In this document: positions 3,801 through 42,260 of the stretch, piece after piece
Layout: each line of letters opens with the position of its first letter
Numbering within the stretch: the stretch's first letter is position 1
Assembly (NCBI GenBank): GCA_944389545.1
Contig: CALXMT010000021.1
Coordinates: 1-43,938, forward strand
Length of the DNA stretch: 43,938 nt
Direction of reading: 5' to 3'
Source of the DNA: an uncultured Kiritimatiellota bacterium
GTDB lineage: Bacteria > Verrucomicrobiota > Kiritimatiellia > RFP12 > DVOR01
The notes under the pieces: generated by a model
Database searches by the model: none
What the model saw: only the letters and a program-made list of their open reading frames with translations
What the model was told of the DNA's origin: nothing
Program-made: the position numbers and the translations under genes

Positions 3801-6800
3801 TCGAATCGTCCACCCAGAGGATCTCGCCGCCATTCAATTCGCGGACATAGCGGATGTCACGAATGACGTCACTGTTACCCGCCTCCTTGTGGATGTAAGG
3901 ATAATCGCAGACCAACGCGTTCAGCGCGGATTCCGAGAGCAAGCCGTTGTACACGCGGATGAAGTCCACCGTGCCGGGATCGGAAGGATTAGTCCCTTTG
4001 GTTTCAATGCCAAGAATCGTATCCTTCAAGTCACCGTCGAGATTCGCGCCGCCCATGAGCGACCCAACCTGAAGGCCGGGGCCGATTTTCGCGCCGGCGG
4101 GCAACTGCGTGCGAATCAGGCGATTGCCGTTCAGCCACACCTCGACGAGCCCACGGTCGAAGAGAATCGAGACCAAGTGTTGCGATTCCGTGATGCAGGG
4201 GACAGTGGCGGTCGCCAACTTGACCATCTCCTCGGTCGAGTTCTTCGGGATATACCACAGGATAAGCTCGTCGCCCTCCGTGTCGTTGTTCCGACGATCT
4301 CCCTTCAGCGCACCGACAGCCAAGGCCAAGACGGAATAGCCGTCCGTTTCGTACGTCGCGCCACTGTCACCCGTGGTGTCGTCATAGTTCGCGCCGATGG
4401 TCAAGACGGACATATTGCTGTATTCCGGCATCATGATACGCGTGACCAAACTCCACTGCTCCTCCGGAAGGCTGAAGGAGGCCGGTGCGATATACGGCTT
4501 ATAGTCGATGTTGATGCCCTTGGATTGAGGGTTATGCGTCGTATCATACGCTTCTGCCGAATCCGGAATCAACTCGCCTTCGCTTCCGGCACCCAAGCTT
4601 CCTGCGGCACCTCTGAGCATACCGTTCTGGTCCTCGTCGCCGAGGCTGAACCAGCCGGTGTTCTTGGAATTGCCGTTGAACTCCATGTCAAGCCAGGCGA
4701 CCTTACCGGAGAGGACGGGCTCCTCCCATGTGAGGTCGACGGTGCCCTGGTTGACGTTGGGGAAGACCTCATAGGGGTCAAAGAGGGCGCCGGGATAGAA
4801 CTCGTCGAGATCTTTGTGGGTGTCGGCGGCGCCGGGGATGCCGTCGGCGGTGTCGTAGCGATGGAACTCAAAGGCGACATCCTCGGGCCAGGCAGGGATG
4901 GTTGCCTCGCCGCCAAAGGGGCCGGCCTCGACAAGGATGAGTTTGACCGCGGAGCAGTCCTCGGGCCAGAGGATCTTGGAATCGGCGTACTGGTCGAGGC
5001 GCATGACGAGGGTCTGCCCGGGCTGGACGGCGAGGGTGTAGGGAAGCCGCGGGACGTCGGTGGCCGCGAAGTCGACCTCCGGGTAGTCCTTCTCCGTGGC
5101 CGCGCCGTCCAGGTTGCCGACGAGGAAGCCGACCGTGCCGGTGAAACCGCCGGCCTCGAGGGAATCGGCGATGCGCTGAACCGTATCGGTGGCGGTGGCG
5201 GAGTCCACCCCGAGGTCGCCGAAAAGTACGGAGCCTTCGCCGGAGACGGCGCCGATGGTGCCGCTCAGCTCACCATAACCGGCACGGGCGGGGTCGCCGT
5301 CGAGGGTGAGGGTGGTGCCGGCCAGGGATTTGACGGTGTCGATGGTGACCGTGCCGCCGATGGTGACCGTGCCGGTACCCTTGAGGGAGTCGATGGCAAG
5401 CGAGGCGCCGGGGTCGGCGGAGAGGGCGGCAGCGTTCTCGACGGAGAGGCCGGGGACGACGATGGCGGCCAAGGGGGCGGCGAGGGTGTCGGGGCTCTCG
5501 AAGGCGACCGTGACGGCGCCGCCGATGGCATTGAGGACGCCGCCGTTGCGGAGGGTCAACGAACGGTGCTCCGCAGGATAGAGGTGATAGTCGGTGCCCT
5601 TCAGCGTGTCGGCGGTCGGGTGGAGGTTGAGGACGCCATCGGCATCGACGAGGATGTCGCCGGCGCCGCGATAATCGGTGCGGAGCGCGTCGCTTCCGCT
5701 TTCACCGTAAGGGATACCATAGATGTTGGCCGTGGCATTGCCGGACGTGCCTTCACCATCGCCGATGAGGAGCGTGGAGTCGCCCTCGCCCACGACGAAC
5801 TTGGTGGGCCAGTCGGAGGAGCCAAGCGTGAGGGTGCCGAGGCGCTGCAACAGCGTGGCATTGCCAACGAACTGCAAATCCTGGAAGGCGACGGTGGGCG
5901 CAGGGGTCATTGTGGTCTGGCGAATCTCCAGTGTGGTTTGGCCGCTCGGGCCGCCCAAGCGGATGCGGTCCCGGGTGGAGAAGTTGTGGCCATCGATCGC
6001 CAGGTTGAAGTTATAGGCTTTATCGCCCTTGTTGCCGATGCGGTAGATGGCGCCCTGGGAATCCTGCTCAGCGCTCGAGCTCGTGCTAGTGAGGGCGAGC
6101 GCCACTTCGCGGGCGAAGACGAGCGTGCCGGAGGTCTCGGTGAAGAAGTACTCGGCATACTTCGAGGGGATGGTGCCGGTCTGGTCGGTGTCGGCGAGGG
6201 TGAGCGTGGCCGAGGGCGCCGTGAGATCGACGGAGGGCAGACGCGCCTCGTTGGCGGCTTTGGATTCCAAACGCAGGGTGCGGCCGGCACGAACGCGCAC
6301 GTCATTCTCTTGGAACCACCCCCTGGGGCGCAGAGGCAGGGGGCTGGTGAAGGCCAGATCGCAATCGATGGCCAGTGAATCGGGTTCCCACAACTGATCG
6401 TTATCGTTTTTGTCGGAGTCCTGCCAAGGGCCGGAGACGGAGATCATGCCATTGGTGACGCCGGAGGCGTTGCGGAAGACGAAGGGGCCGGTCATGCGCG
6501 CGCTCTCGGCAAACACCACGGCGGGGGCCGCATGTTGTTGGGTGGGGTCGCTCGCGCCCGCGCCCCGCGCCTCGATGATGAGCGTGGCATTCTCGAGTGT
6601 CTGATCGAGCGTGAGGGTCTGGTCGGCATCGACCTGAACGATGAGGTGGCAGTTGGCGCTGTCCGAAAGGCCGGACTTCTCCCAGATGGAGGAGAGGGAC
6701 TCATTCCCCGCGAGCGTGTGCGTGTACACCGTGGGCGACGTCTTGCCCAGGAAGGTGATATAGGGCGCCACGCTACCCTCGGTGCCATACATCACCGAGC

Positions 6801-7407
6801 CATCCACCAACGAATTGGAGAAGAGCGGCAATGTAGGCGGCAGAACGGCATTGAGCACCAGGCGGTAATCCCCAGTGTCAGCCGCGATGGGATCGGTGAA
6901 GGTATACGTGACCGGCGTCATCTCCACTTCGGTGCCGTCGGCCTGGCGCACCTTGACGGGTTCACCCGTGGAGGCATAGTTCGCCGTGCCCAGAAACTGG
7001 GAGCCCTGGTCGCCATAGAGCAGGATGGTGGGCAGATTGGCGCGGCCGAGGTTGGCGCTGCCCAGCGCGGTGAAGTCATAGAGCGTCACGCCCGTCAACG
7101 TCAACCCCGTCGGGACGGACCCAAAGGTCGCCCCATCGAGCGTGTACTCCAACAGCCCCGAGGTGAGGTTGAAATCGATTTGACGGTTCGTCGCCGCGTC
7201 ACGCGTGATGAAGTCCGCGGTCTGGCCGATGGTGCCCGCGGTGAAGTCCCCCGTGACCTCTGCCCGCGGGGCGGGAGAGATTAAATCACTGACATGGGGG
7301 GGGGTGAGGGTTGTTGCAGTCTGGGCGACGCCGGCGCCGCAAACGCCGACGATCGTCGTGAGGGCCAAAGCCATCCCGACGCTGCCCCATTGTTGCTGGA
7401 GGGTCAT
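835..7407 (-). CDS. Giant secreted surface protein with LamG-like and autotransporter-type beta-helix regions (2190 aa)
   Basis: It begins with a signal peptide (hydrophobic stretch about residues 11-28, likely cleavage after GVAQ or nearby). Residues about 890-1165 look like a LamG/concanavalin-A-like domain: alternating beta strands, a WSLVTRI-type strand, a VEVWLNGNRL strand and a terminal FIRVYNGLLSE. Much of the rest is Thr/Ala/Gly/Asp-rich beta-strand sequence typical of passenger domains, with a PATR-like LTKTGPGTVDF near 1780. No beta-barrel translocator, LPXTG or PEP-CTERM signal is visible at the C-terminus, so the anchoring mode is unknown. The start is supported by AAGGA eight bases upstream and a promoter at 7487-7514. 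Codons 35-38 contain nine consecutive C residues, where slippage would shift the frame right after the signal peptide. The gene is monocistronic. Family assignment rests on composition and motifs; an adhesin or glycan-binding role is inference. Confidence 0.85.
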   Translation of the reverse strand: MTLQQQWGSVGMALALTTIVGVCGAGVAQTATTLTPPHVSDLISPAPRAEVTGDFTAGTIGQTADFITRDAATNRQIDFNLTSGLLEYTLDGATFGSVPTGLTLTGVTLYDFTALGSANLGRANLPTILLYGDQGSQFLGTANYASTGEPVKVRQADGTEVEMTPVTYTFTDPIAADTGDYRLVLNAVLPPTLPLFSNSLVDGSVMYGTEGSVAPYITFLGKTSPTVYTHTLAGNESLSSIWEKSGLSDSANCHLIVQVDADQTLTLDQTLENATLIIEARGAGASDPTQQHAAPAVVFAESARMTGPFVFRNASGVTNGMISVSGPWQDSDKNDNDQLWEPDSLAIDCDLAFTSPLPLRPRGWFQENDVRVRAGRTLRLESKAANEARLPSVDLTAPSATLTLADTDQTGTIPSKYAEYFFTETSGTLVFAREVALALTSTSSSAEQDSQGAIYRIGNKGDKAYNFNLAIDGHNFSTRDRIRLGGPSGQTTLEIRQTTMTPAPTVAFQDLQFVGNATLLQRLGTLTLGSSDWPTKFVVGEGDSTLLIGDGEGTSGNATANIYGIPYGESGSDALRTDYRGAGDILVDADGVLNLHPTADTLKGTDYHLYPAEHRSLTLRNGGVLNAIGGAVTVAFESPDTLAAPLAAIVVPGLSVENAAALSADPGASLAIDSLKGTGTVTIGGTVTIDTVKSLAGTTLTLDGDPARAGYGELSGTIGAVSGEGSVLFGDLGVDSATATDTVQRIADSLEAGGFTGTVGFLVGNLDGAATEKDYPEVDFAATDVPRLPYTLAVQPGQTLVMRLDQYADSKILWPEDCSAVKLILVEAGPFGGEATIPAWPEDVAFEFHRYDTADGIPGAADTHKDLDEFYPGALFDPYEVFPNVNQGTVDLTWEEPVLSGKVAWLDMEFNGNSKNTGWFSLGDEDQNGMLRGAAGSLGAGSEGELIPDSAEAYDTTHNPQSKGINIDYKPYIAPASFSLPEEQWSLVTRIMMPEYSNMSVLTIGANYDDTTGDSGATYETDGYSVLALAVGALKGDRRNNDTEGDELILWYIPKNSTEEMVKLATATVPCITESQHLVSILFDRGLVEVWLNGNRLIRTQLPAGAKIGPGLQVGSLMGGANLDGDLKDTILGIETKGTNPSDPGTVDFIRVYNGLLSESALNALVCDYPYIHKEAGNSDVIRDIRYVRELNGGEILWVDDSKPWRREYKGDSGWWYRSREGVVTEEDDYVEPAEGAIIVLNCTRDTTIYVNTKKGGVFPSADRTYAQLIVEGGARVTIRPYDDESTETLDWETATDEDGNYLYGRLYFSGGAGEAVALHARDEATDHNQSGSGSAAACFVHDAILYASVCDLSRDAVRLFHTESLFDEHTARLQMFADEARMRGETRDVVECHLTGQVSGQGYLEITPDTSLNPAYEQVSTHVYVQNFIPATSEWLITDTTETNEHNSSFTSSGGSLNVGKGGLYARYAKYPGPLYLELNVDQLANGVGNLADQEWYSFGYNGDTAAETPSRIKPEKPKTEDAFEAASALYIRLKNGDTDDVLLVSANKEIANLTIDAPKGDEDGANESLRILPSSNGDRLTVTDSVTTARRLEVYDPEANGGAAGAGVDGIRLVPRTEIISDTTGGTTTVIETGTLLHGVESGVYAAGNTSVNYPLDGSSIARIESVNAIAFAAEQDLSATTLAAAEGATVTQTNAADAFHAGAMELAKGSRFTFASSEASVDGAVTLTGNATLEGTGTAAALTPAQGIRGEGDGAALTLNAAKGAAWRLYTEEVASLPLTKTGPGTVDFATDLPPNAGKVDVQEGTLLVPTGIPGAGEAIGQGGLNVDEGATLAPTGATVTDDAVAEIPAGQTVSGLGSIAGQLRLNKGALLDATEAFADGDALHTLTVDTLTTDGATALADIDVALPESTQSGLVFLRSNETTLNWDARARLLAKANGTRWDVFLKYRPDQTTAVGTNYLVDVAGLDVPTFPPDEEQPGEGENEWPDEDGDGSDTGDELGDQIQDGGNVAGEAEGYTKANTQWLMAPDIANAYACFGSVWTYARRSNDKASEDYATIDLLMAYEFGISRMAFTQDGNHILIEATLRNALKDCNYSNEQLQGAGALKPTFLDGVSVVIVGPNGELTGVKEITAAEAQGHGFTPIENPTEVSRWFLVPYDEANFTTGEVTHLTVRALPPAEQTATPAQ

Positions 7408-7635: not shown

Positions 7636-8345
7636 AGTGGAAGTTTGGAAGCTTGGAGGTTTGGAGGCTTGGAGGAGCCCCGGAGGTTGAGGCCCGGGCT
7701 GTCGCCTGCGGCGACGATGAAGCCGGACGCTGCGCGGCTATCACGAAGTCCACGAAGAACCACGAATGGACACAAAGACTGCCAGCGTGGGAAACCGCCG
7801 ATTACGGAGAACACAGAGGAACACAGAGAAGACAGAGGGGCACAGAGGCGGGCGGCGTGCTACCGCCGGCAGGACTGCCAGTTTTTAATCACAAAGGACA
7901 CAAAGGACACAAAGGTTTTAGGGTGATTGGCTGATTAGCTGATTGGAGGTGTGGGGCGCTGCCCCACGCCCCGGCAGGGGTGGCAGGGCCACGCCCCTTC
8001 GTTCTCCCTGCACCCCCGGCACGTCTGCGACGTGCCCAACTGACGACACAATAGGACTTATAGGACGTATAGGACCTATAGGACGGGCGCGGAGGGGCTG
8101 CGCTTCTTATATTTATAAGGAGGCTTCGTCGGTCGCGCGCTTGCCGCGCGTTCTGTTCTCTGTTCTCCGTTCTCCGTTCTCCGGGGCGCCAGAGGCGCCC
8201 CATTGTCCTACCGCGGAGCTTTCCGGGAGACGACAGAAACGCAAGGGATGGGCACGGTAGTGAGGCCAGAATGGCCGAACGGCCGCACTTCGCTTTCCAA
8301 TCAGCTAATCAGCCAATCAGCCGGGCGCTCCGACAGAGCGCCTGT
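7636..8345. repeat. Intergenic repeat mosaic
   Basis: There is no credible gene between the promoter at 7514 and the ridA terminator. The modules in order are: 8-bp TTGGAAGN units (about 7638-7675), CACGAAGTC-type units (about 7740-7772), ACACAGAG-type units (about 7800-7850), ACAAAGGAC units (about 7890-7915), CTGATTGG/CTGATTAG units (7922-7945), the hairpin GTGGGGC/GCCCCAC (about 7950), the hairpin GGCACGTC/GACGTGCC (about 8018), 9-bp ATAGGACNN units (8050-8084), 7-bp TTCTCCG/TTCTCTG units (about 8150-8182), the hairpin GGGGCGCC/GGCGCCCC (about 8183), and CCAATCAG units with the GGGCGCTC/GAGCGCC hairpin (8298-8345). The last block matches the right half of the element at 16201-16366. Confidence 0.85.
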
Positions 8346-9226: not shown

Positions 9227-9616
9227 TTGGAAGTTTGGAAGTTTGGATGCTTGGAAGTTTGGTTTCCTTGGTGGGGCTCTGCCCCACACCCTGTCTTGGA
9301 AGTTTGGAAGTTTGGATGCTTGGAAGTTTGGTTTCCTTGGTGGGGCTCCGCCCCACACCCTGTCTTGGAAGTTTGGAAGTTTGGATGCTTGGAAGTTTGG
9401 TTTCCTTGGTGGGGCTCTGCCCCACACCCTGTCTTGGAAGTTTGGAAGTTTGGAGGCTTGGGGGGCGGCTACGCCGCCAGAGAACGGGGGGCGGCTACGC
9501 CGCCAGAGAACAGAGAACAGAGAACAGAGAACAGAGCGCCCTGGCGGGCGACGGTTGAAGGTGCGGGAGGAGGTGGTAGGACGCCAAGCTTCCAAGCCTC
9601 CAAACCTCCAAGCTTC
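9227..9616. repeat. Three tandem 69-bp repeats plus shorter repeat modules
   Basis: A 69-bp unit is repeated three times almost exactly (9227-9433; the anchor GTTTGGATGC occurs at 9241, 9310 and 9379) and is followed by a partial fourth copy. Each unit holds four 8-bp TTGGAAGT/TTGGATGC steps and a hairpin TGGGGC/GCCCCA whose loop is TCT, TCC, TCT. The array is followed by two copies of a GGCGGCTACGCCGCC palindrome (about 9462-9505), 7-bp AGAGAAC repeats, and a final 8-bp block in inverted orientation (about 9585-9612). It fills the whole gap between kdsB and the small Cys-motif gene. Confidence 0.9.
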
Positions 9617-16544: not shown

Positions 16545-16573
16545 TTGACCTGATGGGGGAGGGTTGGTATAGT
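16545..16573 (+). promoter_or_regulatory. Sigma70-type promoter of the envelope lipoprotein operon
   Basis: TTGACC (16545-16550), exactly 17 bases, then TATAGT (16568-16573). The spacer is G-rich. It gives a leader of about 100 nt before the ATG at 16681. It is the best promoter match in the window together with the pflB promoter. Confidence 0.8.
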
Positions 16574-16680
16574 AGTAATAGAGTTTGGGCCGGTGTGGTA
16601 CCGGCGCGAACGGGAAAGACGGGCTGTGGGTCTGCACGGTGTGTCGGATTTGTGGCCTGTCATGTGAAAGGAAAAGAGAA

Positions 16681-18390
16681 ATGAAGACAGTGATGAAAGT
16701 CGGCACTCTCGCCGTTGCCGGTTGCGCTCTGCTTACGGGGTGCGGCGGGCCGGAACTGACGGATGCTCAGAAGCCCATTGTTCTGCCTTGGCAGGAAGAG
16801 ACCGAGATTCTGATGGAGATTGAAGATCCCGATATGCGCAAGTTGTCGCAGTCCGGGATTCCGGCTGTGGACGTGGTGGCGGATTCCATCACGGCGTTGT
16901 CTCAGTTTACCACGGGGGCGGTCTCGGCTTATATGTTGGAGTCGGATGCCCGCGCGTGCTGGCAGTCGTATTCCAACTGGGCCACCGATGCTGAGGCCGG
17001 CAAGTTCTGGGACGAGCTCGACGAGCTTGACAAGAACGACCCGGCCTACAAGAAGAAACTTGCCGCATACCTGAAGATTGCCCTCATGGAGAGCCGTTAC
17101 CGGTCGTTCCCCACCGTGATGAAGCGTACGGCTGACGCGGAGACGTTCGAGGCCAAGTTCAATGCGATGTGCCAGTACGCCACAGATCGGGATCCCAATG
17201 GGAAGGATGCGGCCTCCAGTGGTGAGCGTGATTGGACGAAGGCAGTCGTTGATGCGAACTATGCCCCTATCATCGTGATGGAGCCTAAGACGGTGACCGT
17301 GACGGTGAAGGACGGCGATAAGACGGTCTCCGAGACGCGCACTGTTTATCGCACCGTTGCCGGTGCTGAGGTCTATGCGGACAACGAGGAAGGCTTGGCG
17401 ACCTTCGCTGTGAAGAGCGCCCTCAATGCCGCGCTCACCCGTACGGATCATGGCGCGTTGGTCAATACCGTGGCGAAGACCAGCGGCGTCGACTTGGCGG
17501 CCGAGACCGAGGAAAAGCCGCTGACCTTCACCTACTTGGATGGCAAGGTGCCGACCCGTCTGCCCAACGTGGCCGCGAAGATCGAAAAGAAGGACTCGAC
17601 CGGCGCCACCGTCAAGGATGAGAAGGGCCAGGTGGTGATGACGACCAACCCTGCCTTCACGGCTTTGGTGGAGCAGTGGACGAAGACCCCCGCGAGCGTC
17701 GTCTTCTACGATGCGGCCGGCAAGAAGATCGCGCCCAAGTCTGCGCAAGAGGCTGCTGCCGCGGCCGGCGCTTACGAGACCTTCGTGGATGCGAATGGCG
17801 CCTTCCTCTATAGCTATGTCTCCCAGAAGGGGCTCTATGACGTCAAGACCAAAACCTTCAAGACCGACAAGGCCTACACCGGCGCCGATGGCTACATCAA
17901 CGCCAAGGATGCGCTGGCCATCGATGAGCTGACCATGCGTCCGGCCAAGATGAAAGTGCCCGTCAAGAAGGATCTGGCCAAGCTTTTGGTCAAGAATTAC
18001 GAGGGGCTGCGTTCGTACCATAAAGCCATCTTGGAGGCCAAGGACGACGAAGCGCGTAAGGCCGCCGAGGAGGCCTTTGAAGCTGCCGCCAAGAAGGCCG
18101 AGGAGAAGTTCCTCTCCGCGATGGCGGTGGAAGAGATCGACTGGGAGGCGCTGACCCGTACCTTGACCGTGAAGATTTCTCAGGCCACCGCGGATGCCGC
18201 TCAGTTGCAGCAGGCCCTGGCGAGCAATGCCAAGGTCATCGCCATGCTGAGCTTCGGCCAGAAGGTCGCCGAGGATATCTCCGTCGACGAGACGAAGGCC
18301 GCGTTGGTGCGCATTGGCAAGCAGTCTGCCCTGAACGTCAAGCTGTTGCCTTACCTGGCCGGTCTGCTTGCCGATCAGCTCACTGAGTAA
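16681..18390 (+). CDS. Predicted lipoprotein of unknown family, first gene of the envelope operon (569 aa)
   Basis: The N-terminus is a lipoprotein signal: Lys-rich start, hydrophobic core and lipobox LLTGC, so Cys22 or so is the anchor after Lgt and signal peptidase II processing. The residue after the Cys is Gly, which does not suggest inner-membrane retention by the E. coli +2 rule. The body is soluble: a helical first third, a central beta-rich part with a TVTVTVKDGDKTVSETRTVYR-like strand pair near residue 200, and a highly helical Lys/Glu/Ala-rich last third (about 440-569). I do not recognise the family. AAAGGAAAAGAGAA precedes the ATG. Its stop overlaps the next start (TAATG). It has an A/T-tolerant codon mix unlike pflB. 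Confidence 0.88.
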   Translation: MKTVMKVGTLAVAGCALLTGCGGPELTDAQKPIVLPWQEETEILMEIEDPDMRKLSQSGIPAVDVVADSITALSQFTTGAVSAYMLESDARACWQSYSNWATDAEAGKFWDELDELDKNDPAYKKKLAAYLKIALMESRYRSFPTVMKRTADAETFEAKFNAMCQYATDRDPNGKDAASSGERDWTKAVVDANYAPIIVMEPKTVTVTVKDGDKTVSETRTVYRTVAGAEVYADNEEGLATFAVKSALNAALTRTDHGALVNTVAKTSGVDLAAETEEKPLTFTYLDGKVPTRLPNVAAKIEKKDSTGATVKDEKGQVVMTTNPAFTALVEQWTKTPASVVFYDAAGKKIAPKSAQEAAAAAGAYETFVDANGAFLYSYVSQKGLYDVKTKTFKTDKAYTGADGYINAKDALAIDELTMRPAKMKVPVKKDLAKLLVKNYEGLRSYHKAILEAKDDEARKAAEEAFEAAAKKAEEKFLSAMAVEEIDWEALTRTLTVKISQATADAAQLQQALASNAKVIAMLSFGQKVAEDISVDETKAALVRIGKQSALNVKLLPYLAGLLADQLTE

Positions 18391-19418
18391 TGAGAGGTCT
18401 CGCCGTGAAGCGTAACGCATTTCTGACGCTGGCGGCACTGTGCCCCGTGGCCCTTTTTGTGGCCGCGGGGTGCACCTCTTCCGGCATCAACCCCAATATC
18501 ACGGTCTATGATCGTGATACCGTGGCCGACCGAGACGTCAGTCTGCCCGGCAACTATGGTACAGAGAACTATCGCCGTCTGACGTTGGCCACGATGCCCG
18601 GCTCGCTGATCTCCAATTCCTTCAGCGACTCGACCATGAAGAGTATGAGCCTGCGTATGCAGTCCGAGCTTGCCAAAATCAAGCGTTTCTCCGTTTATGC
18701 GGTGCATGGCGCCGATGAGACGGAGTTGCGCGAATTGGAGGATATCGGCGAGCTCAAAGTGGTCGACCCCGACAATTTGGCGACGATCGACTTGTTGGCC
18801 TCGTGGAACGTCACGCTGAACGCGGAGGCTAAACACGATGGTCGGGACACGACCATTACGTTCACCTGCACTGTGAACTTGACTTGCAAGGATTTGCGCA
18901 CGGGAGTGGTCAAATTCTCCAAGGACTTGGATTTCAAGGTGTATCGTGAGCAACGGCGCAACCGCTACGGTCACGTGGTGGAAGGGTTCGACTATAGTAA
19001 CAAGAACAATGTCCAGAGCTTCTTGCAGGACATCGCCACGCAGTCTGCCATCCGCATCGCCAACGAGCTTGGCAACGAGTATCCCATCGGTGGCCGCATC
19101 ACCGGCATGCTGGGCATCGATATGATGACGTTGGACAAAGGTTCTGAGCAGGGTATCGACAAGGGTATGCAGATGGTCGTCTATGCCACCGTCGGTGGCG
19201 TGGATGTGCCGCTCGGCAACGCCGAAGCCACGCCCTCGACCAATACCGCGCAACTGGAGGTGTGGCGCCTCAACACCGGCAACAAGTACGCCGCCCGCGT
19301 GCTGAAGCAGATTGAGGAAGACCCGAACTGGCTGAACCACAACAAGCTCTACGCCGTCGGCTACGGCATGGCCATGCCGCCCGAATGGCAGACGAAGTCG
19401 CTTTACTTGCCCAATTGA
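18390..19418 (+). CDS. Lipoprotein with CsgG/FlgT-C-like features (342 aa)
   Basis: A lipoprotein signal ends in VAAGC. The body begins with beta strands and a helix of the form MKSMSLRMQSELAKI (compare the first helix of CsgG/LpoB-like domains). A DLLASWNVTLNAEA strand and TGVVKFSKDLDFKV follow. A C-terminal third reads YPIGGRITGMLGIDMMTLDKGSEQGIDKGMQ with VVYA, the glycine-spaced pattern seen in FlgT C-terminal/CsgG-like domains. It is a paralogue of the lipoprotein at 24723-25670. The ATG overlaps the previous stop (TAATG) without a Shine-Dalgarno; a GTG at 18405 with AGAGG upstream gives an equally good signal peptide and may be the true start. Function is unknown; outer-membrane localisation is inferred. 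Confidence 0.85.
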   Translation: MRGLAVKRNAFLTLAALCPVALFVAAGCTSSGINPNITVYDRDTVADRDVSLPGNYGTENYRRLTLATMPGSLISNSFSDSTMKSMSLRMQSELAKIKRFSVYAVHGADETELRELEDIGELKVVDPDNLATIDLLASWNVTLNAEAKHDGRDTTITFTCTVNLTCKDLRTGVVKFSKDLDFKVYREQRRNRYGHVVEGFDYSNKNNVQSFLQDIATQSAIRIANELGNEYPIGGRITGMLGIDMMTLDKGSEQGIDKGMQMVVYATVGGVDVPLGNAEATPSTNTAQLEVWRLNTGNKYAARVLKQIEEDPNWLNHNKLYAVGYGMAMPPEWQTKSLYLPN

Positions 19419-19439
19419 TGGGCTGTGATTCGACTTTTC

Positions 19440-19472
19440 CTTCCTTTGCCGCGCTTCGGCGCGCGAAGGAAG
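19440..19472 (+). promoter_or_regulatory. Intra-operon hairpin before the LPP20/FlgT-like gene
   Basis: CTTCCTTTGCCGCGC and GCGCGCGAAGGAAG pair around a TTCG tetraloop with a small internal mismatch. There is no U tract, so it is more likely an attenuator, processing site or mRNA stabiliser than a terminator. It occupies the only gap over 100 nt between genes of this operon. Confidence 0.5.
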
Positions 19473-19540
19473 AATTCGCACTTGAAACCGCCGCGGGTCT
19501 CTCGCGGTACTGTCTGTGAAAGGAAGACAAAGGAGATGTC

Positions 19541-20947
19541 ATGAGGAATACGGTTTGTTTCTTGTTTGCGGCTGTGGCCGCGATGTGTTGCATCGCCCCG
19601 GCCTGGGCACTCAATTCCAAGGCCGAGGCTCGGAAGCTGTTGGACGACGTCTCGCTTCAGTCCAGCTCCGGCCGTGACAATACCGCCGGATCATGGATTA
19701 TGGTCAAAGGCTCCGCTCCCATCCAAGCGGGGGATGAAGACCAAGCCCGCCGCATGGCCGAGCTCGAGGCCCGCAAGGCGCTTGGAATCTTCCTGGATGG
19801 TAACATCTCCGGAGAAACGACTGCCAGTCGCAAGCGGGTCGACAAAGAGGTCACGTCTTACTTTTCCACTCTCTCCAAGAGTGAGCTGGACACACGTCTG
19901 GCCGGCGCCCGCATCGTTGCCGCCGAACCTATCGGGGACACCTATTATGCGGTTGTCTTGTTGACCCAGAACGCCGCCGATGCCCGCAAAGCTTTCCAAG
20001 ATGCCGTTGCCGCCAAGGGCGGCCCCAACACCGTCCAAGTCTCCGGCGAGGGGCGCACCTACGAGGAAGCCCTTGCGGCCGCCACCCGCAATGCGTTGGC
20101 CCAAGCCCGCGGCATGAGCATCGTGGCCACTGACGCCGCGACCGACTCCGACCTCACCACCCGCACCTATGCCGACATCCAAGGCGTCGTCGAGGCCTAT
20201 CGCGTGGTCGAGGAAGAGAAGACCGCCGACGGCTGCGTCCGCCTGACCATTGTCGCCACCATCGGCACCGGCCTCAAGGACACCTATGGCGCCGAACTCA
20301 AGTCCGTTGGCGACCCTGTCTTCTGGGTCACCTGCGATGATGTGGAGACCCGCCAGGTAATCTCTGACGCCCTCATGGAGAAGGGGTTCAAGACTAGCCT
20401 TGACCAAGGCACCGCGGATTACCGTGTCGCCATCAAGGCGGATTTCGAGACCATCACCCATCCCGTCAACAAGCGTTCCGGCACGCGTCTGCAGCTCACC
20501 ATTGCATGCTATGACGCGGGCGGCGTCCAGCTCTTCACCCTTCAGAACAATGCCCGCAAGTCCGTCAGCTTCGTCGGAACCGCCGAGCGCCAGCGTCAGC
20601 TGACCCTTGAGAAGGCCGCCAAGCAAATCGCCAAGCCGCTCCATGAACGCATCCAGCGCGCCATCGCCGATGTCACCAACAATGGCCGTAGCGTCCGTGT
20701 CGCCTTCCTCAACGCCACCACCGATGAGCAACTCCGCTTGGTCGAGCGCATCTGCGAGACGGCCAACAATCTCCCCGGCGTCGCCGGCGCCACCATCGGG
20801 CGCGAGGTCGCCAATCCCAACACGGCCATCATCCGCCTGACCCTCCGCGGCAATCCGCAGGACTTCCTCTCCATGCTCCGCCGCCAGGTGCCGGAGTGTC
20901 CCCCCGCCACCGAGGTCAGCCCCAACCTGATTATCCTTCGCTTTTGA
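19541..20947 (+). CDS. Secreted protein with LPP20/FlgT-N-like domains (468 aa)
   Basis: A Sec signal peptide ends in PAWA (about residue 23). Residues about 65-145 and 165-250 each resemble the LPP20/FlgT N-terminal fold. There is an Ala-rich helix (QARRMAELEARKAL; YEEALAAATRNALAQA), then a mixed segment, then a strand with VVEAYRVVEEEK and CVRLTIVATI. The last 200 residues are a separate alpha/beta part with VAIKADF and RLQLTIACYD strands. It has no lipobox and should be periplasmic. GACAAAGGAGATGTC lies before the ATG. FlgT supports the flagellar H-ring in Vibrio, but no flagellar gene is present here, so the domain is probably used in another envelope machine. Confidence 0.85.
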   Translation: MRNTVCFLFAAVAAMCCIAPAWALNSKAEARKLLDDVSLQSSSGRDNTAGSWIMVKGSAPIQAGDEDQARRMAELEARKALGIFLDGNISGETTASRKRVDKEVTSYFSTLSKSELDTRLAGARIVAAEPIGDTYYAVVLLTQNAADARKAFQDAVAAKGGPNTVQVSGEGRTYEEALAAATRNALAQARGMSIVATDAATDSDLTTRTYADIQGVVEAYRVVEEEKTADGCVRLTIVATIGTGLKDTYGAELKSVGDPVFWVTCDDVETRQVISDALMEKGFKTSLDQGTADYRVAIKADFETITHPVNKRSGTRLQLTIACYDAGGVQLFTLQNNARKSVSFVGTAERQRQLTLEKAAKQIAKPLHERIQRAIADVTNNGRSVRVAFLNATTDEQLRLVERICETANNLPGVAGATIGREVANPNTAIIRLTLRGNPQDFLSMLRRQVPECPPATEVSPNLIILRF

Positions 20948-20979
20948 GACTTTCACCCCCCAACAATAGGAGTAACATC

Positions 20980-22512
20980 ATGAAACGTTCGTTCATCTTT
21001 GCCGGGGTCGTCTGCGCTGCCGGCATGGTTATCGCCCAGGCCGAACCTGGTGCTGGCGCGATGCCCCTCTCTATCGCTGCGACGCCGGCCCAGCCCGAGG
21101 CCAAGGTGTCTATCACGGAGACTGACCTCCCCGGGAACACCCCTGGCAAGGTTCTCAAGAGTACGGCCCCCAACGCCATGATGGCCTGTAACCAGTTCAT
21201 TCGTGAGAAGGGGTGGCGTCAAGGCCCGAACCGGAAGGCGGATGGCAGCGTCTTCATCGTTGTCGCCGGCACGGCCTCGATTTCTGTCCCCGTCGGCAGT
21301 GATGACTACACGCTGAATCGTTTGACGGCCTTTGACAGCGCAATGCTCTCCGCCAAGACCTCGGTTGCCAACTTCCTGAACTCCTCCATCGAGACGGCTA
21401 TGTCGCGCCGGGTCTCCAAGCCCGACAAGAACGCTTCCGCCACAGATGCGTTGGCTTGGGAAATCGCCTCCGCACCGAAGGGGTCTCCTATCGCCCGTCT
21501 CTATCAGGATTGCCAAGACGAGCTGGCCGCAGAGTTGGCCAAACAGAATCTTGACTTGGCCGCCGCGCGTGCCGTCGGAGGCGAAGCCGCCGCCGCGGCC
21601 GAAAAGAAGGTCATTCAAATCACGCAGTCCACGGCCTTCCAGAATAGCGTCAAACGAGCCTCCGAGGCGGTCATCTCCGGTCTTCAGGCCTATACTTCTT
21701 TTGAGGTGCTGAACGAGAATGGCAGTGGCTCTGTCGGTGTCGTGGCCATCTGGAGTCCCAAACTGAGCTACTACGCCAGTGCCTTCGTCACCCGTGACGT
21801 CCCCATCGAGTTGGGCAAGGCCAAGCGTCCGCTCCAGGAGCGTGTCGAGATGGATCCCGAAAACCTCCTCTCCATGTACGGAGTCACCGCGATGATTGAC
21901 GAGCGTGGCGAGCAGGTTCTCGTCTCTTACGGACAAGCCGTCCCTCGCGACGATTCCGACATGGACGACGTGATGATGACCTACCAAGAGGCGCAACTCT
22001 ACGCGGAGGCGCAGATTCGCAACTTCGCCGGTGAGTCCATCAAGTCCGTTGAGGCCGGTCAACGCGGCTCTTCCAGCCTCTCTGCCAAGGGCCTGAACAA
22101 GTACGCTCGGACGGAGCAGGGTTATGAGCAGGTCGTCGAAGCCCGTGCCGAGGCGATGACGGTTCGTGGTATCACGCCTTTCTCCCAATGGGAGGCTGTC
22201 CATCCTTACACTGGTCGCATGGTTTGCGGTGCCATCGTCACGTGGTCGCCCTCCGCCGCACAGGTGGCCGATCAGGCGAAGTCCTATCTTGATGCCGTCG
22301 CCGCGCCTGCCGCCGAAGGTGATTCTGAGTATAACGAGGCCCCCTCCGCCGATGCGAATGCCTTCGGTGAACGTCTGAACCCGAAGGCTCAGAAGGCAAA
22401 GAAGGAAAAAGAGCTGCGCATGCTTGACAGCCTGAAGCAGCAGTCTGGTGAACAAGAGCGTGTCAACCAGTTCTTCAATGGCGGTGTCGAGAGCGACGAC
22501 GATGCCTTCTAA
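20980..22512 (+). CDS. Secreted protein with two internal LPP20-like repeats (510 aa)
   Basis: A signal peptide (cleavage near VIAQA, residue 21) precedes two related halves, about residues 110-275 and 320-450. Each has an Ala-rich amphipathic helix, a linker, and a closing strand ending in a WSP motif (VVAIWSPKL; AIVTWSPSA). The last 60 residues are Lys/Glu/Gln-rich and probably coiled coil, ending in an acidic DDDAF. It resembles secreted DUF6844-like proteins, but I cannot confirm the family. TAGGAG precedes the ATG by 7 bases. Its stop codon lies inside the start of the next gene (11-nt overlap), so the two are translationally coupled. Confidence 0.83.
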   Translation: MKRSFIFAGVVCAAGMVIAQAEPGAGAMPLSIAATPAQPEAKVSITETDLPGNTPGKVLKSTAPNAMMACNQFIREKGWRQGPNRKADGSVFIVVAGTASISVPVGSDDYTLNRLTAFDSAMLSAKTSVANFLNSSIETAMSRRVSKPDKNASATDALAWEIASAPKGSPIARLYQDCQDELAAELAKQNLDLAAARAVGGEAAAAAEKKVIQITQSTAFQNSVKRASEAVISGLQAYTSFEVLNENGSGSVGVVAIWSPKLSYYASAFVTRDVPIELGKAKRPLQERVEMDPENLLSMYGVTAMIDERGEQVLVSYGQAVPRDDSDMDDVMMTYQEAQLYAEAQIRNFAGESIKSVEAGQRGSSSLSAKGLNKYARTEQGYEQVVEARAEAMTVRGITPFSQWEAVHPYTGRMVCGAIVTWSPSAAQVADQAKSYLDAVAAPAAEGDSEYNEAPSADANAFGERLNPKAQKAKKEKELRMLDSLKQQSGEQERVNQFFNGGVESDDDAF

Positions 22513-23755
22513 GGCAACAACCGTTGCCCTGATGATGGGCCTCTCCCTGTGTCGCGCCCTTTGCGGCGCGACGCCGGGGGAGGTTTTTGTTGCCAACCGC
22601 GCGGATATCCTTTCCGAGGGAACCTGCACGGTCGGCGGTTATCGTTTTTCTTGCGCCGTTGAGGAAGTCTCTTCTGAAGATGGGGATGAACGCGAAGTCG
22701 CCAAACAGGCCGCGGCCTTTTTGGCCTCGACCGGTTTGGTGTGGGGTGCCGTGACGGAGCGGCTGGAGTGGCCGGACGCCCTTGCGCTGGAGCACCGCCG
22801 GGTGTTGGCGAACGCGCTTCCCGCGCTCTTTCCCGTCTCGGCCAACGTTCGCGGGCTGACCCTCGTCTACGAGGCCTTTGATGGGGAGCGTTGGACGGCT
22901 GTCGCGGCCTTGCCGGAGGAGCAGTTGGCGGCGTTGCCTCGGATCACCTTCGAGTCGGCGCGCGACCGTCTGCTTGCGCCGGAGCTGATTTATGCCCCGG
23001 ATGCCCCGATTGAGGCGTTGGCGGCCCTGCGTGCCTTGGAGGAGACGTTGCCGGCGCCTGTCGATCGAGCGCCCTGGGCGGCGTTGCTGTCCAAGGCCGC
23101 TTTCGCGACGCCTCGACTCTCGGCGCTTCCGCGTTTGGCGGGGCGCTATCCGTCAGGCTCGGCGGGGTTGCCGAAAGATGCCGACTACACCCGGGGGATC
23201 GAAGCCTATGGCAAAGGTGACCTGCAGGCCGCCTATGCCGGATTCCTGGCGAGTGCGGAGCGGGCCTATACCTTTGATGCGCTCAATATGGCCGGTAACG
23301 TGGCCCGGCGCTTGGGGAAGCTGCCCGAAGCCGCCGCGCTCCTGCTCCATGCCGCCTATCTCAAGCCGGCCTCGCCCTATCCATGGGTCCACTTGGCCTT
23401 CGTGGCCCAGGCCGAGGGGGATGCGGCGCTCGCGGAGCGGTGTTGCGAACAGGCGCTTGAGCGGGGCCCGGAGGATGCTTGGGTGGTCGAGCAGGTTGCC
23501 GCGCTTCGCGCCCCCAAAAAAACGCAATCGCCGCCCGAGGCGCCTACGCCCCAGGAACCCGCCGCACCGACTTCGGCGAAGAAATCCGCTTTTATGGATG
23601 CTTTCAAGGCATCCGTCGCACCAGCCCCTGTCACGCCTGAGTCCGCCTCTGCGGCCCCGGCGCAACAACAACCCACCGTCCCGGCCGCGACACCGGCCCC
23701 GGACGAACCGAAAGTGATCATCCAACGGACCGATACGCCGCCGGATGTGTACTGA
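22502..23755 (+). CDS. Secreted TPR protein with Pro/Ala-rich tail (417 aa)
   Basis: A short signal peptide (hydrophobic VALMMGLSLCRALCGA) is followed by about 200 residues of unrecognised sequence. A TPR-type helical block follows (about 228-335; YTRGIEAYGKGDLQAAY, then ASAERAYTFDALN, then SPYPWVHLAFVA), and then a low-complexity Pro/Ala tail (338-417). The TPR block is closely similar to that of the next gene, indicating duplication. I chose the ATG at 22502, which overlaps the previous stop; the frame is open 54 nt further upstream but no signal peptide would start there. It is predicted periplasmic or surface-exposed, and protein-protein scaffolding is the usual TPR role. Confidence 0.82.
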   Translation: MPSKATTVALMMGLSLCRALCGATPGEVFVANRADILSEGTCTVGGYRFSCAVEEVSSEDGDEREVAKQAAAFLASTGLVWGAVTERLEWPDALALEHRRVLANALPALFPVSANVRGLTLVYEAFDGERWTAVAALPEEQLAALPRITFESARDRLLAPELIYAPDAPIEALAALRALEETLPAPVDRAPWAALLSKAAFATPRLSALPRLAGRYPSGSAGLPKDADYTRGIEAYGKGDLQAAYAGFLASAERAYTFDALNMAGNVARRLGKLPEAAALLLHAAYLKPASPYPWVHLAFVAQAEGDAALAERCCEQALERGPEDAWVVEQVAALRAPKKTQSPPEAPTPQEPAAPTSAKKSAFMDAFKASVAPAPVTPESASAAPAQQQPTVPAATPAPDEPKVIIQRTDTPPDVY

Positions 23756-23765
23756 CACCTAAACA

Positions 23766-24593
23766 GTGAGCCTGATTATGTTGATCGATATTCTGCTCTA
23801 TGTCGTGCTGCCCTACCTCATCTGCTACTTGATTGCATCGCGCGTGACGCGTCGCTACAGCTTGCAGAACGTCTCCGCGCGGTCGGCGGGGTTTGGCGGC
23901 TTTTTCATGTCTTCGAGCGAGGTGCTTGGCGGCCGTTTCTTCGCCACGCTCGGCCTGGCCTTGGTCTTTTATGGGATTCTCGCGCTGATTTACTTCGCCG
24001 TGACCCCGACGCCCGCCGAGGAGGAGAAGTCCGAGGAGGAAATCGAGATTGTCGCGGTGGAGGACCTTCCCGACGTTGACTACACCAAGTGGGCCGGCCT
24101 CACCTATCGCGCCGTCTTCTACACGCCCAACCTGAAGGCGCTCGTCAATATCGACAAGCGCCTCCCCGCCAGCGATGCCAAGCCGACCGACGGCAACTAT
24201 CAGCGTGCCACCGAGGCCTTCGCCAAGGGCGACCTCGACACCGCTTATGCCAATGCCCTCGCCAGCGCGGAGCGGGCCTACACCTTTGACGCGCTGAACC
24301 TGGCCGCCAACGCCGGCCGCCGTCTCGGCAAGAATCCCGAGGTCGCGGTCTTGGCGCTCGCCGCCGCCGACCTTGCTCCCGAGTCGCCCTATCCGTGGGT
24401 CCACTTGGCCTTCGTCGCTTTGGCCGAGGACAAGGACGACCTCTGTGCGGTCTGCTGCGACCGTGCCGCGTCGCTCGGCCAGCGCGATGCCTGGGTGATC
24501 GACCAGGTGAAGGAGCTTCGCGGGAAGCTCGCCGAGCGCAAGGCCAAAGCGAGCGAGTCCGTCACGCTTGAAACCCCCACGGAGGCGCCCTGA
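23766..24593 (+). CDS. Membrane-anchored TPR protein (275 aa)
   Basis: Two hydrophobic segments (about residues 5-24 and 56-77) anchor it in the inner membrane. An acidic linker (EEEKSEEEIE) follows, then a TPR block (about 140-255). This block shares ASAERAYTFDALN, a RRLGK.PE step and SPYPWVHLAFVA with the preceding secreted TPR protein. The start is GTG at 23766 or ATG at 23778; no strong ribosome site is visible, and coupling to the gene 10 nt upstream is likely. By position the TPR part should lie on one face of the inner membrane opposite or next to the secreted paralogue. Partners are unknown. Confidence 0.82.
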   Translation: MSLIMLIDILLYVVLPYLICYLIASRVTRRYSLQNVSARSAGFGGFFMSSSEVLGGRFFATLGLALVFYGILALIYFAVTPTPAEEEKSEEEIEIVAVEDLPDVDYTKWAGLTYRAVFYTPNLKALVNIDKRLPASDAKPTDGNYQRATEAFAKGDLDTAYANALASAERAYTFDALNLAANAGRRLGKNPEVAVLALAAADLAPESPYPWVHLAFVALAEDKDDLCAVCCDRAASLGQRDAWVIDQVKELRGKLAERKAKASESVTLETPTEAP

Positions 24594-24595
24594 CC

Positions 24596-24706
24596 ATGCG
24601 TCTGAGTGTCATTTGCTTGTGTGTGCTCGCCGCGCTGTTCGCCTTTGGCGCGGTGGGCTGTTCTTCACTCCCCGGCAACGCCGAGGATGCCAGTTACTGG
24701 CGTTAA
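24596..24706 (+). CDS. Mini-lipoprotein (36 aa)
   Basis: A very short gene: MRLSVICL start, hydrophobic core, and lipobox GAVGC with Cys22, followed by only 14 further residues ending DASYWR. The mature product would be a 15-residue lipopeptide (CSSLPGNAEDASYWR). GGAGG lies about 12 bases before the ATG; the previous stop is 2 nt away and the next gene 16 nt away, so it sits inside the operon. Small lipoproteins of this kind (like EcnA/B or Lpp-like peptides) often act as envelope spacers or secretion pilots; here the role is unknown. It is easily missed because of its length. Confidence 0.75.
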   Translation: MRLSVICLCVLAALFAFGAVGCSSLPGNAEDASYWR

Positions 24707-24722
24707 ACGAAAGGAGTCCCCC

Positions 24723-25670
24723 ATGAACCTGACGAAACTCAGTGTTGTCTGCGGTTTGGCGGCGCTTGCCTTCGGGTGCGCTTCCACCGATCCCGTCGCG
24801 GTTACCGCGCCCGACCCCATCCTCAATCCCTTGGGTGTGCCCGAGGTCGCGCCGGAGGATGCCGAAAGCCTTCTGCCCGCGGATTTCGCCGCGGAGCGCA
24901 CCGCCATCGAGGGCCGTGCCTTCGCCATGCCGGCGAACTACGACTTGGGCGGTGCGGATCGCGTCGTGCTGGGCACCGATCCTGACGCGTGCGTCACCAC
25001 CTCCGCCGGCCCCGTGGAGGAGACGGCCGTTCTGAACAATGCCATCCGTGCCGAGCTGGAGCGCCTCACGGCCTCTTCCATCCGTGAAATCTCGCTGGAC
25101 AATACCGGCCTGTGCACCCACGTGTTGGAATGGAAGGCCGACCTCGCCAAGGCGCAAGAGGGTTACACGTGCAACGTGAACGTTGCGCTGTATGACGTCT
25201 CCGCCAAGACCGCCGTGAGTAAAGAGGCCTTCACTGCCAAGGTGACCGTCCCGGCCGCCGCGAATGGCGTCCCCGTGCAGGCGCTTCGCCGTCTCGGCAC
25301 GCAGGTCGCGCTGAAGATCGCCGATGTCGCCATTGGGACGTTGCCCTTCTCCGGCCAGGTCCTCTCGTGCGAGGACCTGGACCTGCTCGTCATGGAGGGT
25401 GGCACCCTGCAGGGGATTTATGAGGGCCAGCAGATGCTGGTCTATGCCGTGATCGATGGTGCGGCGTTGCCGTTGGCTTATGCCGACGCCAAGCCCGGCA
25501 CCACGCGCACGAATCTCACCCCTTGGAAGCTCAACGAGGAGGACCCGCTCGCCAAGACCGTCATCGATGCGATTGACGACGACCCGGAGACCTTCGCGAA
25601 GTATGGCCTCCGCGCCATCGCCGTGGGCGAACCGCTTTCCCCGCTCCAGCGCCGCCGTCTGGCGCAGTGA
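24723..25670 (+). CDS. Lipoprotein, paralogue of the CsgG/FlgT-C-like lipoprotein (315 aa)
   Basis: A lipoprotein signal ends in LAFGC (Cys about 19). It matches the 18390-19418 product in layout. There is a helix AIRAELERLTASSI, then an LEWKADLAKAQ strand, NVNVALYDV, a TQVALKIADVAIG helix, and a C-terminal FSGQVLSCEDLDLLVMEGG with a YEGQQMLVYA repeat of the glycine-spaced pattern. An IDDDPETFAKYGLRAIAVG tail follows. Both paralogues end with a DDP/EEDP plus AVG segment, implying a gene duplication inside one operon. GAAAGGAG precedes the ATG. It is the last gene; the terminator follows 24 nt later. Function is unknown. Confidence 0.85.
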   Translation: MNLTKLSVVCGLAALAFGCASTDPVAVTAPDPILNPLGVPEVAPEDAESLLPADFAAERTAIEGRAFAMPANYDLGGADRVVLGTDPDACVTTSAGPVEETAVLNNAIRAELERLTASSIREISLDNTGLCTHVLEWKADLAKAQEGYTCNVNVALYDVSAKTAVSKEAFTAKVTVPAAANGVPVQALRRLGTQVALKIADVAIGTLPFSGQVLSCEDLDLLVMEGGTLQGIYEGQQMLVYAVIDGAALPLAYADAKPGTTRTNLTPWKLNEEDPLAKTVIDAIDDDPETFAKYGLRAIAVGEPLSPLQRRRLAQ

Positions 25671-25694
25671 GCGCAGTTGTGATGTTGTGCCTAA

Positions 25695-25731
25695 GGGGCG
25701 TGGCGGTCCGCCGCCACGTCCCTTTTTATTT
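25695..25731 (+). terminator. Intrinsic terminator of the envelope operon
   Basis: GGGGCGTGGCGG pairs with CCGCCACGTCCC (12 bp, one G-T) around a 4-nt loop and is followed by TTTTTATTT. It cleanly closes the operon 24 nt after the last stop codon. Confidence 0.9.
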
Positions 25732-29000: not shown

Positions 29001-29069
29001 CTTTTTCCCCTCCCCCCGCGGCACCCAACCCCTTCCCCCGCGCCCCCAGACCCCTCCCTCCTCCCTCCC

Positions 29070-29223
29070 AGACCCTATAGTGGTCCAAGGTCAACCACTA
29101 TAGTGGTCGGGGTCGAGACCCTATAGTGGTCCGATGTGAGACCCTATAGTGGTCCGTGGTCGACCCCTATAGTGGTCCACTGCCGACCCCTATAGTGGTC
29201 CATCGCCGACCCCTATAGGGTCT
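29070..29223. repeat. Seven-copy 23-bp repeat array around CTATAG
   Basis: CTATAG occurs at 29075, 29098, 29121, 29144, 29167, 29190 and 29213, always exactly 23 bases apart. Each full unit is CTATAGTGGTCC, six variable bases, then GACCC or a near variant. The first and last units are bounded by AGACCCTATAG and CTATAGGGTCT, which are inverted repeats of each other. The array lies between the pflB terminator and the nagA promoter. Constant phasing with a variable interior suggests a multi-site protein-binding array (iteron- or operator-like). It is not a CRISPR. Confidence 0.9.
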
Positions 29224-35035: not shown

Positions 35036-35087
35036 GAGGATTGTGTGGCGTTGGGGCAATTTCTAAAAACAGAATAACTTTTTGAGA

Positions 35088-35117
35088 TTGACGGGGGGGG
35101 GGGAAGTGTGTTATTGT
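35088..35117 (+). promoter_or_regulatory. Promoter with G11 spacer tract before the PEP-CTERM gene
   Basis: TTGACG (35088-35093) and TATTGT (35112-35117), spacer 18 (or TTATTG with 17). Positions 35093-35103 are eleven consecutive Gs. A slip of one or two bases would change the -35/-10 distance, as in known phase-variable promoters. The leader is about 55 nt. Confidence 0.6.
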
Positions 35118-35177
35118 AAAGACAATCAATGGGAACCCACGGTGGATTCCCATGATGGAATGACAAGGAACGCAGTG

Positions 35178-35873
35178 ATGAAACTGAAATCTTCGATGGC
35201 TTTGATTGCGGCCCTTTGTGTGGCCGGCTTCACCCAGGCGGCGACAGTCGAGTGGGAGGAGGGTCCGTGGACTTCCGATGGCAGTTACAAAGTCTCCTCC
35301 GGTAGTGCGAATGTGATTAGCTTGGGCGAGTCTGTGAACCTGAAGACGCAGTGGAATGTCATCACCGTTGCGTTCTCGGTCACTTCTGTGGACTTGTCCG
35401 GTGGGTGGAAGAGTATCTTGTCTATTTGCTCCTCGCAGGCTGGTGCCGGTAACAACGACAATCTGCGCCTCTCCATTTCTGATGGGTCTGGCTCTGGCTC
35501 GAAGAAGGGTGGGCTTTATCTCAACGGTAACGCGATGACAAGTGACTCTCCGCTCCAGATCACGGAAGCTTCGCTTGAGACCAACAAAAATTACGTCGCG
35601 ACCATCACGTTGGACGGCGCGGGCTCCGTCCGAGTGGTCCTGACTTCGGACGGATCGGTAATCGCGGATGCCTCCAAGACGGTGTCCAATACGTATGAAA
35701 ATCTGGATACGATTGTCCTTGGCACGGGTTCGATGGTTGAGGCCAACGGTAATCGTACGTTCGGAGATGGTGTTCTGACGGTGAGCGAAGTTGCGGTGCT
35801 CCCCGAGCCGACGGCGTTGGCGTTGCTGGCGCTGGGCGTGGCGGGTGTCGCGTTGCGCCGCCGCGTGGCGTGA
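35178..35873 (+). CDS. PEP-CTERM surface protein (231 aa)
   Basis: A Sec signal peptide ends in TQA (about residue 21). The body is beta-rich (Ser/Gly/Thr) with strands such as NYVATITLDGAGSVRVVL, resembling a LamG-like lectin fold. The C-terminus is a textbook PEP-CTERM signal: LPEPTALALL, a hydrophobic helix and RRRVA (residues 208-231). Such proteins are cut and anchored or released by an exosortase (EpsH/XrtA), which is not in this window. AAGGA lies 10 bases before the ATG. The promoter contains an 11-G tract. A hairpin with T-rich tail follows at 35915-35949. Confidence 0.92.
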   Translation: MKLKSSMALIAALCVAGFTQAATVEWEEGPWTSDGSYKVSSGSANVISLGESVNLKTQWNVITVAFSVTSVDLSGGWKSILSICSSQAGAGNNDNLRLSISDGSGSGSKKGGLYLNGNAMTSDSPLQITEASLETNKNYVATITLDGAGSVRVVLTSDGSVIADASKTVSNTYENLDTIVLGTGSMVEANGNRTFGDGVLTVSEVAVLPEPTALALLALGVAGVALRRRVA

Positions 35874-42086: not shown

Positions 42087-42260
42087 TTGTGGAAGTTTGG
42101 AGGCTTGGAAGCTTAGAGGCTTGGTTTATCCATCGCCCACAGGGCGCTCCTGCACCTCCTGTACGGTCACCGTCCCATGCACCTTTACATCCTTTGTACT
42201 GTCCTTGGTGCCACGTTCCCCTGTTCGCCTCTGCGTCCTGTTCCGTCTTCTCCTAACCTC
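42087..42260. repeat. Intergenic repeat fragments
   Basis: 8-bp TTGGAGGC/TTGGAAGC units (42090-42125), a TCCTGCACCTCCTGTAC block, and TGTTCCGTC/CTCTGCGTCC-like tails. The rest up to the promoter at 42325 shows nothing. Confidence 0.75.

Follow-up and report, generated by a model that had tools for sequence, protein, structure and literature searches.

FlgO-, FlgP- and FlgT-type domains are known chiefly from flagellar motors. The operon described here, which lies in a 43,938-nucleotide stretch of DNA (the window) from an uncultured Kiritimatiellota bacterium, resembles the Vibrio H-ring (FlgO, FlgP, FlgT) in combining a lipoprotein, LPP20/SHS2 domains and FlgT-type middle and C-terminal domains, and one of its products, g2, corresponds to FlgT over ~300 residues. 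In contrast to the H-ring system, the source genome has no detectable flagellum (no FliF/YscJ), and the operon adds DUF6844 and a further protein, g5. Moreover, FlgT is a single protein with N, M and C domains, whereas here M and C are found in g2 and an LPP20-type N together with M in g3. In the Campylobacter basal disk (FlgP/FlgQ), FlgQ resembles a two-protomer FlgP repeat (PMC12222027). Similarly, the operon contains LPP20/SHS2 domains, and g4 is a two-unit repeat; however, the FlgP profile match is limited to one domain of g3, the first repeat of g4 carries a long insert, and there is no motor.

In Francisella, FTT1537c-FTT1540c form a four-gene operon, and a transposon insertion in it causes mild attenuation of virulence, with a possible polar effect (PMC4696196). 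FTT_1540c is annotated as LpoB (PMC8149597), and FTT_1539c is an immunoreactive protein found with outer-membrane vesicles (PMC10963506). The present operon shares a full-length DUF6844 homologue with this group and its proteobacterial relatives, and DUF6844 genes in the relatives have FlgT-like and LpoB-like neighbours. Unlike in the Francisella-type operon, the gene order differs and the LpoB and COG3014-like genes lie outside the operon; profiles of g1 and g5 found no match in the proteobacterial DUF6844 loci searched. Finally, lipoproteins of the CsgG/PelC/LptE/TolB-N type share the fold of the g2 and g3 middle domains, but here there is no CsgG family score and the operon includes no curli, Pel or Lpt partner genes.

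Layout and conservation of the operon

The genome to which the window belongs, as contig 21, measures 2.53 Mb and is 95.8% complete; its relatives bear the names Kiritimatiellota/Kiritimatiellae or uncultured Verrucomicrobiota/Lentisphaerae. The operon consists of eight co-directional genes on the + strand (16681-25670), listed here with their predicted signals.

16545..16573, +: candidate promoter, TTGACC-17-TATAGT with TG before the -10 (10/12 with extended -10)
16681..18390, +: g1, lipoprotein of 569 aa, signal peptide ending in LLTGC
18405..19418 (or from an ATG at 18390), +: g2, lipoprotein (signal ending in VAAGC); TolB-N/CsgG/PelC/LptE-type domain at ~56-230, FlgT-C-like barrel at ~230-290
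19419..19540, +: g2-g3 spacer with the GC-rich hairpin CTTCCTTTGCCGCGCTTCGGCGCGCGAAGGAAG (-47.3 kcal/mol, z -2.0, weak)
19541..20947, +: g3, secreted (signal peptide); LPP20-type domains at 41-142 and 164-241, PelC/LptE/CsgG-type domain at 245-381, ferredoxin-like C-terminus at 383-467
20980..22512, +: g4, secreted DUF6844 protein (signal peptide); tandem repeat of LPP20-type domains and a conserved acidic C-terminal tail (GxxxDxDA-like)
22502..23755, +: g5, secreted (signal peptide); conserved N-terminal LPP20-related domain and TPR region
23766..24593, +: g6, inner-membrane protein with two transmembrane segments, carrying a fused copy of the TPR region found in g5
24596..24706, +: mini-lipoprotein of 36 aa, MRLSVICLCVLAALFAFGAVGCSSLPGNAEDASYWR, directly before g7
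24723..25670, +: g7, lipoprotein, paralogue of g2 (blastp)
25693..25724, +: intrinsic terminator, 14-pair stem (10 GC) followed by the T-rich tail TTTTTATTT

A first-pass annotation of the letters alone had described eight genes with overlaps or short gaps between one promoter and one terminator. All eight are present on the + strand, spaced from an 11-bp overlap (g5 starting within g4) up to 32 bp, with g2-g3 (122 bp) as the sole exception, and all operon frames used have a coding-type third-position GC of 0.68-0.84. The three large lipoproteins (g1, g2, g7) and the mini-lipoprotein do carry the lipoprotein signal peptides ascribed to them. As for the enclosing signals, the predicted terminator is convincing as the operon end, but the promoter is only a plausible candidate, since such sites are about as frequent by chance (3 found in the region vs 1.9 expected). 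The spacer hairpin, in the operon's only long spacer, is possibly an mRNA processing or stability element. The flanking genes are ordinary metabolic genes unrelated to the operon, of serine/threonine dehydratase type upstream and pyruvate formate-lyase type downstream, as judged by eye from their translations.

Homologues of g3 were found in 24/162 genomes of the order (drafts, searched with a single-sequence query) and homologues of g4 in 20/388 genomes sampled from the phylum. Fifteen loci (L035, L036, L039-L047, L050, L073, L100, L101) retain g1-g2-g3-g4-g5 in this order on a single strand, and they come from families f1, f3, f5, f6 and f42 and from a Lentisphaeria MAG; most of the remaining loci are broken by contig ends or are without one end gene. 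Profiles of g2-g4 were built from L035-L054, and L073, L098, L100 and L101, which lie outside them, have the same order. Because 15 loci, from at least five families, share the five-gene order, it represents a conserved operon, and the gene-order comparison that had been proposed thus finds synteny across the order and beyond. Furthermore, three of the parts (g6, the mini-lipoprotein and g7) are present only in close relatives, as additions at the genus level, and no constant cargo or transporter gene adjoins the core in the relatives. The annotated trans-envelope machine therefore stands as a list of inner-membrane, periplasmic and outer-membrane components, but the conserved unit is five genes for secreted proteins and lipoproteins, not eight.

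Elsewhere in the window, dispersed arrays of a TTGGAAGT/CCAAGCTT-type 8-mer occupy 9227-9461, 250-301, 7638-7675 and 42090-42124; they include a 69-bp unit repeated 3.4 times, and similar strings occur in several intergenic regions of the same genome. An intergenic 23/69-bp tandem array with the palindrome-like CCACTATAGTGG lies at 29069-29222. Additionally, a secreted passenger-like protein of 2190 aa is encoded at 835-7407 (- strand), and a PEP-CTERM-type protein at 35082-35873 (+ strand) adjoins a sulfatase gene.

Domains of the encoded proteins

Single-sequence Pfam and NCBIfam views of the window proteins give almost nothing, and their relations become visible only through family alignments. 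g1 matches no Pfam or NCBIfam family, and its profile finds no credible match in the PDB; a match to PgaB (0.0084) was distrusted, as it falls in the helical part of a poorly conserved alignment. The relatives of g1 are 230-290 aa long and keep its operon position.

For g2, the AlphaFold2 model (pLDDT 81.7) has FlgT as its top two Foldseek matches, within the Vibrio LPHT ring (8z5n_0, 1.1e-12) and as a crystal structure (3w1e, 1.0e-11). Both matches span ~300 columns, with low TM-scores (~0.3) that reflect a different placement of the two domains; the match therefore holds per domain, with the domain order kept. The middle domain also resembles HpaA, CsgG, PelC and LptE (Foldseek, VIA-align), and the model has no evident extra CsgG-type membrane hairpins, its strands being as in HpaA/LptE. 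Moreover, this domain matches LpoB-family profiles (84%, 8e-6), a likeness seen only between profiles, as PF13036 (LpoB) has 0 matches among 20 g2/g7 homologues. The annotated pair of paralogous lipoproteins is g2 and g7 (blastp 1.6e-21, 24% identity).

The middle-domain fold of both g2 and g3 is that of CsgG/PelC/LptE/TolB-N (Z 8-11). The second domain of g3 matches the N-domain of FlgT-like proteins (98%, 2e-14, profile match), with Pfam FlgT_N remaining sub-threshold on g3 (17.8 vs 28.8 bits), and in the PDB the g3 profile finds, with this domain, the FlgP-type 9hmf (1.3e-5) and FlgP 9yds (0.028). Pfam LPP20 (PF02169) matches 12/19 g3 homologues at E <= 0.1 (best 2.6e-6); the assignment for g3 of the window rests on alignment to FlgP and to FlgT-like N-domains, not on Pfam itself. 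In the LPP20/FlgP family, ring formation accompanies an insertion that comes after the SHS2 helix and before the second strand (PMC12222027). The second domain of g3 aligns to FlgP without gaps through the post-helix segment, the site of the ring-forming hairpin of FlgP, and the hairpin is unresolved in the g3 model, in which the hairpin segments have a pLDDT of ~32-46 and the inter-domain arrangement is unsure (pTM 0.40). The earlier view that the CsgG/FlgT likeness was one of motif only was thus an understatement: profile searches and structure predictions, the checks suggested at the time, give g2 and g3 folds of FlgT/LPP20/CsgG type.

All 20 g4 homologues match DUF6844 (PF20891, best 2.3e-14); g4 of the window alone scores 19.7 bits, under the 27-bit cut-off. 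The g4 profile matches Francisella FTT_1539c (PDB 4QVR) nearly end to end (8.6e-31). In profile comparisons, the N- and C-terminal halves of g4 resemble one another (95%, 3.4e-8), and the first domain of g3 is matched by the first half of g4 (93%, 3.3e-7) and by the N-terminus of g5 (79%, 1.5e-5). Because of these matches, g3, g4 and g5 can be counted as jointly holding ~5 LPP20-type domains. At the level of profiles, DUF6844 is a tandem repeat of LPP20-type domains, and the N-terminal fold of g5 is LPP20-related. The acidic tail GxxxDxDA ends the DUF6844 homologues of the phylum, even where the preceding linker varies. To our knowledge, DUF6844 has a solved structure and no assigned function, and a literature search found no paper on it.

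The g5 profile has no credible match in the PDB, and its TPR region occurs only in the window and in genomes G008, G016 and G147. g5 and g6 have a TPR region of ~150 aa in common (56%), in agreement with the annotated duplication between one secreted and one inner-membrane TPR protein. A positively charged loop separates the two transmembrane segments of g6; because the positive-inside rule puts this loop inside, the TPR part is probably periplasmic. In L035 and L036, two close relatives, a TPR-less version of g6 (113-117 aa) comes after g5, and g6 of the window is therefore taken to be that protein joined to a duplicate of the TPR region from g5. The mini-lipoprotein is considered a real gene because its mature peptide is conserved, CSSLPGNAEDASYWR in the window vs CSSLPGNAENVSYWQ in L035, with the motif also in L036. 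In both relatives the mini-lipoprotein and g7 are placed between g2 and g3, which indicates that this pair has moved within the operon.

Sister operon and absent systems

In L102 and L105 (other members of the phylum) and in L111-L114 (four genomes from the phylum to which an alphaproteobacterial MAG belongs), DUF6844 is flanked by an LpoB gene on one side and a FlgT-like gene on the other. The LpoB genes of this sister operon match PF13036 at 4e-13 to 1.7e-38 in the four tested, and the FlgT-like gene has a CsgG/LpoB-type middle domain. Usually, the sister operon also includes a large lipoprotein gene, presumably COG3014-like as judged by eye; no Pfam family matches it. In the genome studied here, contig 25 (L117, 4211-7330) carries COG3014-like and DUF1425-like lipoproteins and two adjacent LpoB genes, the only two found by a PF13036 search of the genome. 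Because the two modules form one operon in some bacteria and two loci here, this arrangement suggests that g1-g5 and the LpoB/COG3014-like module may act together. A literature search gave no paper joining FlgT with LpoB among the results listed.

FliF/YscJ (PF01514) and CsgG (PF03783) are both absent from the 95.8%-complete genome, in searches that matched in four control genomes, and the lack of a CsgG family score rules out a curli/CsgG identity. In a Pfam LPP20 search of the same genome, the control genomes were themselves unmatched. The first-pass annotation had noted no flagellar, curli or known secretion genes beside the operon. The operon nonetheless has relatives among known systems, as a branch of a DUF6844/FlgT-like group that includes Francisella FTT1537c-1540c.

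Proposed role and alternatives

The reading that we favour, with a probability of about 0.5, is that the operon encodes a non-flagellar, outer-membrane-anchored oligomeric periplasmic scaffold, built from protein domains also found in the flagellar H-ring and basal disk. g2, with FlgT middle- and C-terminal-type domains, and g1 would tether it to the outer membrane at the inner leaflet, a location predicted because the cysteine of each is not followed by Asp. The LPP20-type domains of g3, g4 and the g5 N-terminus would associate side by side to give an oligomer, probably ring- or disk-shaped, beneath the outer membrane. Within the genus, the scaffold might be linked towards the inner membrane by g6 and the TPR region of g5, and g7 and the mini-lipoprotein might be extra outer-membrane subunits. 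The scaffold would act alongside the LpoB/COG3014-like lipoproteins, and its most likely role would be to stabilise or organise the connection between outer membrane and peptidoglycan.

Collectively, the gene content, the conserved order, the folds of g2/g3 by model and of g4/g5 by profile, the homology of g4 to DUF6844/FTT_1539c, the LpoB linkage in sister operons and the absence of FliF/YscJ and CsgG are established. From here we infer a scaffold that is probably oligomeric or ring-forming, together with its location, its interaction with LpoB proteins and its physiological role. A single complex is not a given, as conserved lipoprotein operons need not form one. Additionally, many lipoproteins with unrelated functions have the LptE/TolB-N/PelC fold, which is thus a poor guide to action. 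A further point against the reading is that the inner-membrane link (g6) is confined to the genus, and the patchy presence of g3 in the drafts of the order argues against a core housekeeping role.

Regulation of peptidoglycan synthesis, with an LpoB-like g2 that extends across the sacculus to contact a penicillin-binding protein and g3-g5 as modulators, is an unlikely alternative that nonetheless draws on the LpoB-family match of the g2 middle domain, the true LpoB genes of the sister operons and the annotation of FTT_1540c. However, g2 has no PF13036 score and a C-terminal barrel that is FlgT-like, not LpoB-like, two LpoB genes already lie elsewhere in the genome, and Pfam and NCBIfam recognise no PBP, hydrolase or LysM gene in the operon. 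Somewhat less probable is an outer-membrane apparatus, a collar of CsgG/PelC-like type, by which a surface protein or polysaccharide would be exported or assembled. PelC and CsgG form outer-membrane rings, domains of their type occur in g2 and g3, and FTT_1539c accompanies outer-membrane vesicles, but the operon has no beta-barrel gene, the g2 model no evident CsgG-type membrane hairpins, and the core no constant cargo or transporter neighbour in relatives.

More doubtful again is a loose set of surface lipoproteins or antigens without a joint machine. The related proteins Lpp20, HpaA and FTT_1539c are best known as antigens, and the pair of mini-lipoprotein and g7 has moved within the operon; against this, the five-gene order is kept across distant families with frames overlapping or abutting. 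Finally, the YscJ/FliF family occurs in 79/162 genomes of the order, mostly as frames of ~200-250 aa, the size of injectisome proteins, which suggests that type III injectisomes are widespread in Kiritimatiellota-type bacteria; a literature search found no paper joining Kiritimatiellota with type III secretion. An injectisome accessory, with the role that H-ring proteins have for the flagellum, is nevertheless very improbable, as YscJ is absent from this genome and from G005, G008 and G016, and g3 carriers are not enriched in it (14/24 vs 65/138 non-carriers; Fisher p 0.38), leaving no co-occurrence support.

The five-gene operon and its DUF6844/LpoB sister operon are both uncharacterised so far. 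DUF6844 gains a domain-level reading from the profiles, as a tandem LPP20-type repeat. Furthermore, an operon in a genome without FliF/YscJ offers a gene set for asking what ring-forming domains do alone, and the same set bears on the origin of flagellar accessory rings. Taking the scaffold reading further, we tentatively suggest, as a possibility that is itself open to considerable doubt, an independent outer-membrane ring machine without a role in motility. It would occur in Kiritimatiellota and other lineages of the phylum and, in a sister form with LpoB, in Proteobacteria including Francisella. If this is true, the H-ring and basal-disk proteins of flagella would represent one case in which members of an older envelope-scaffold family were recruited.
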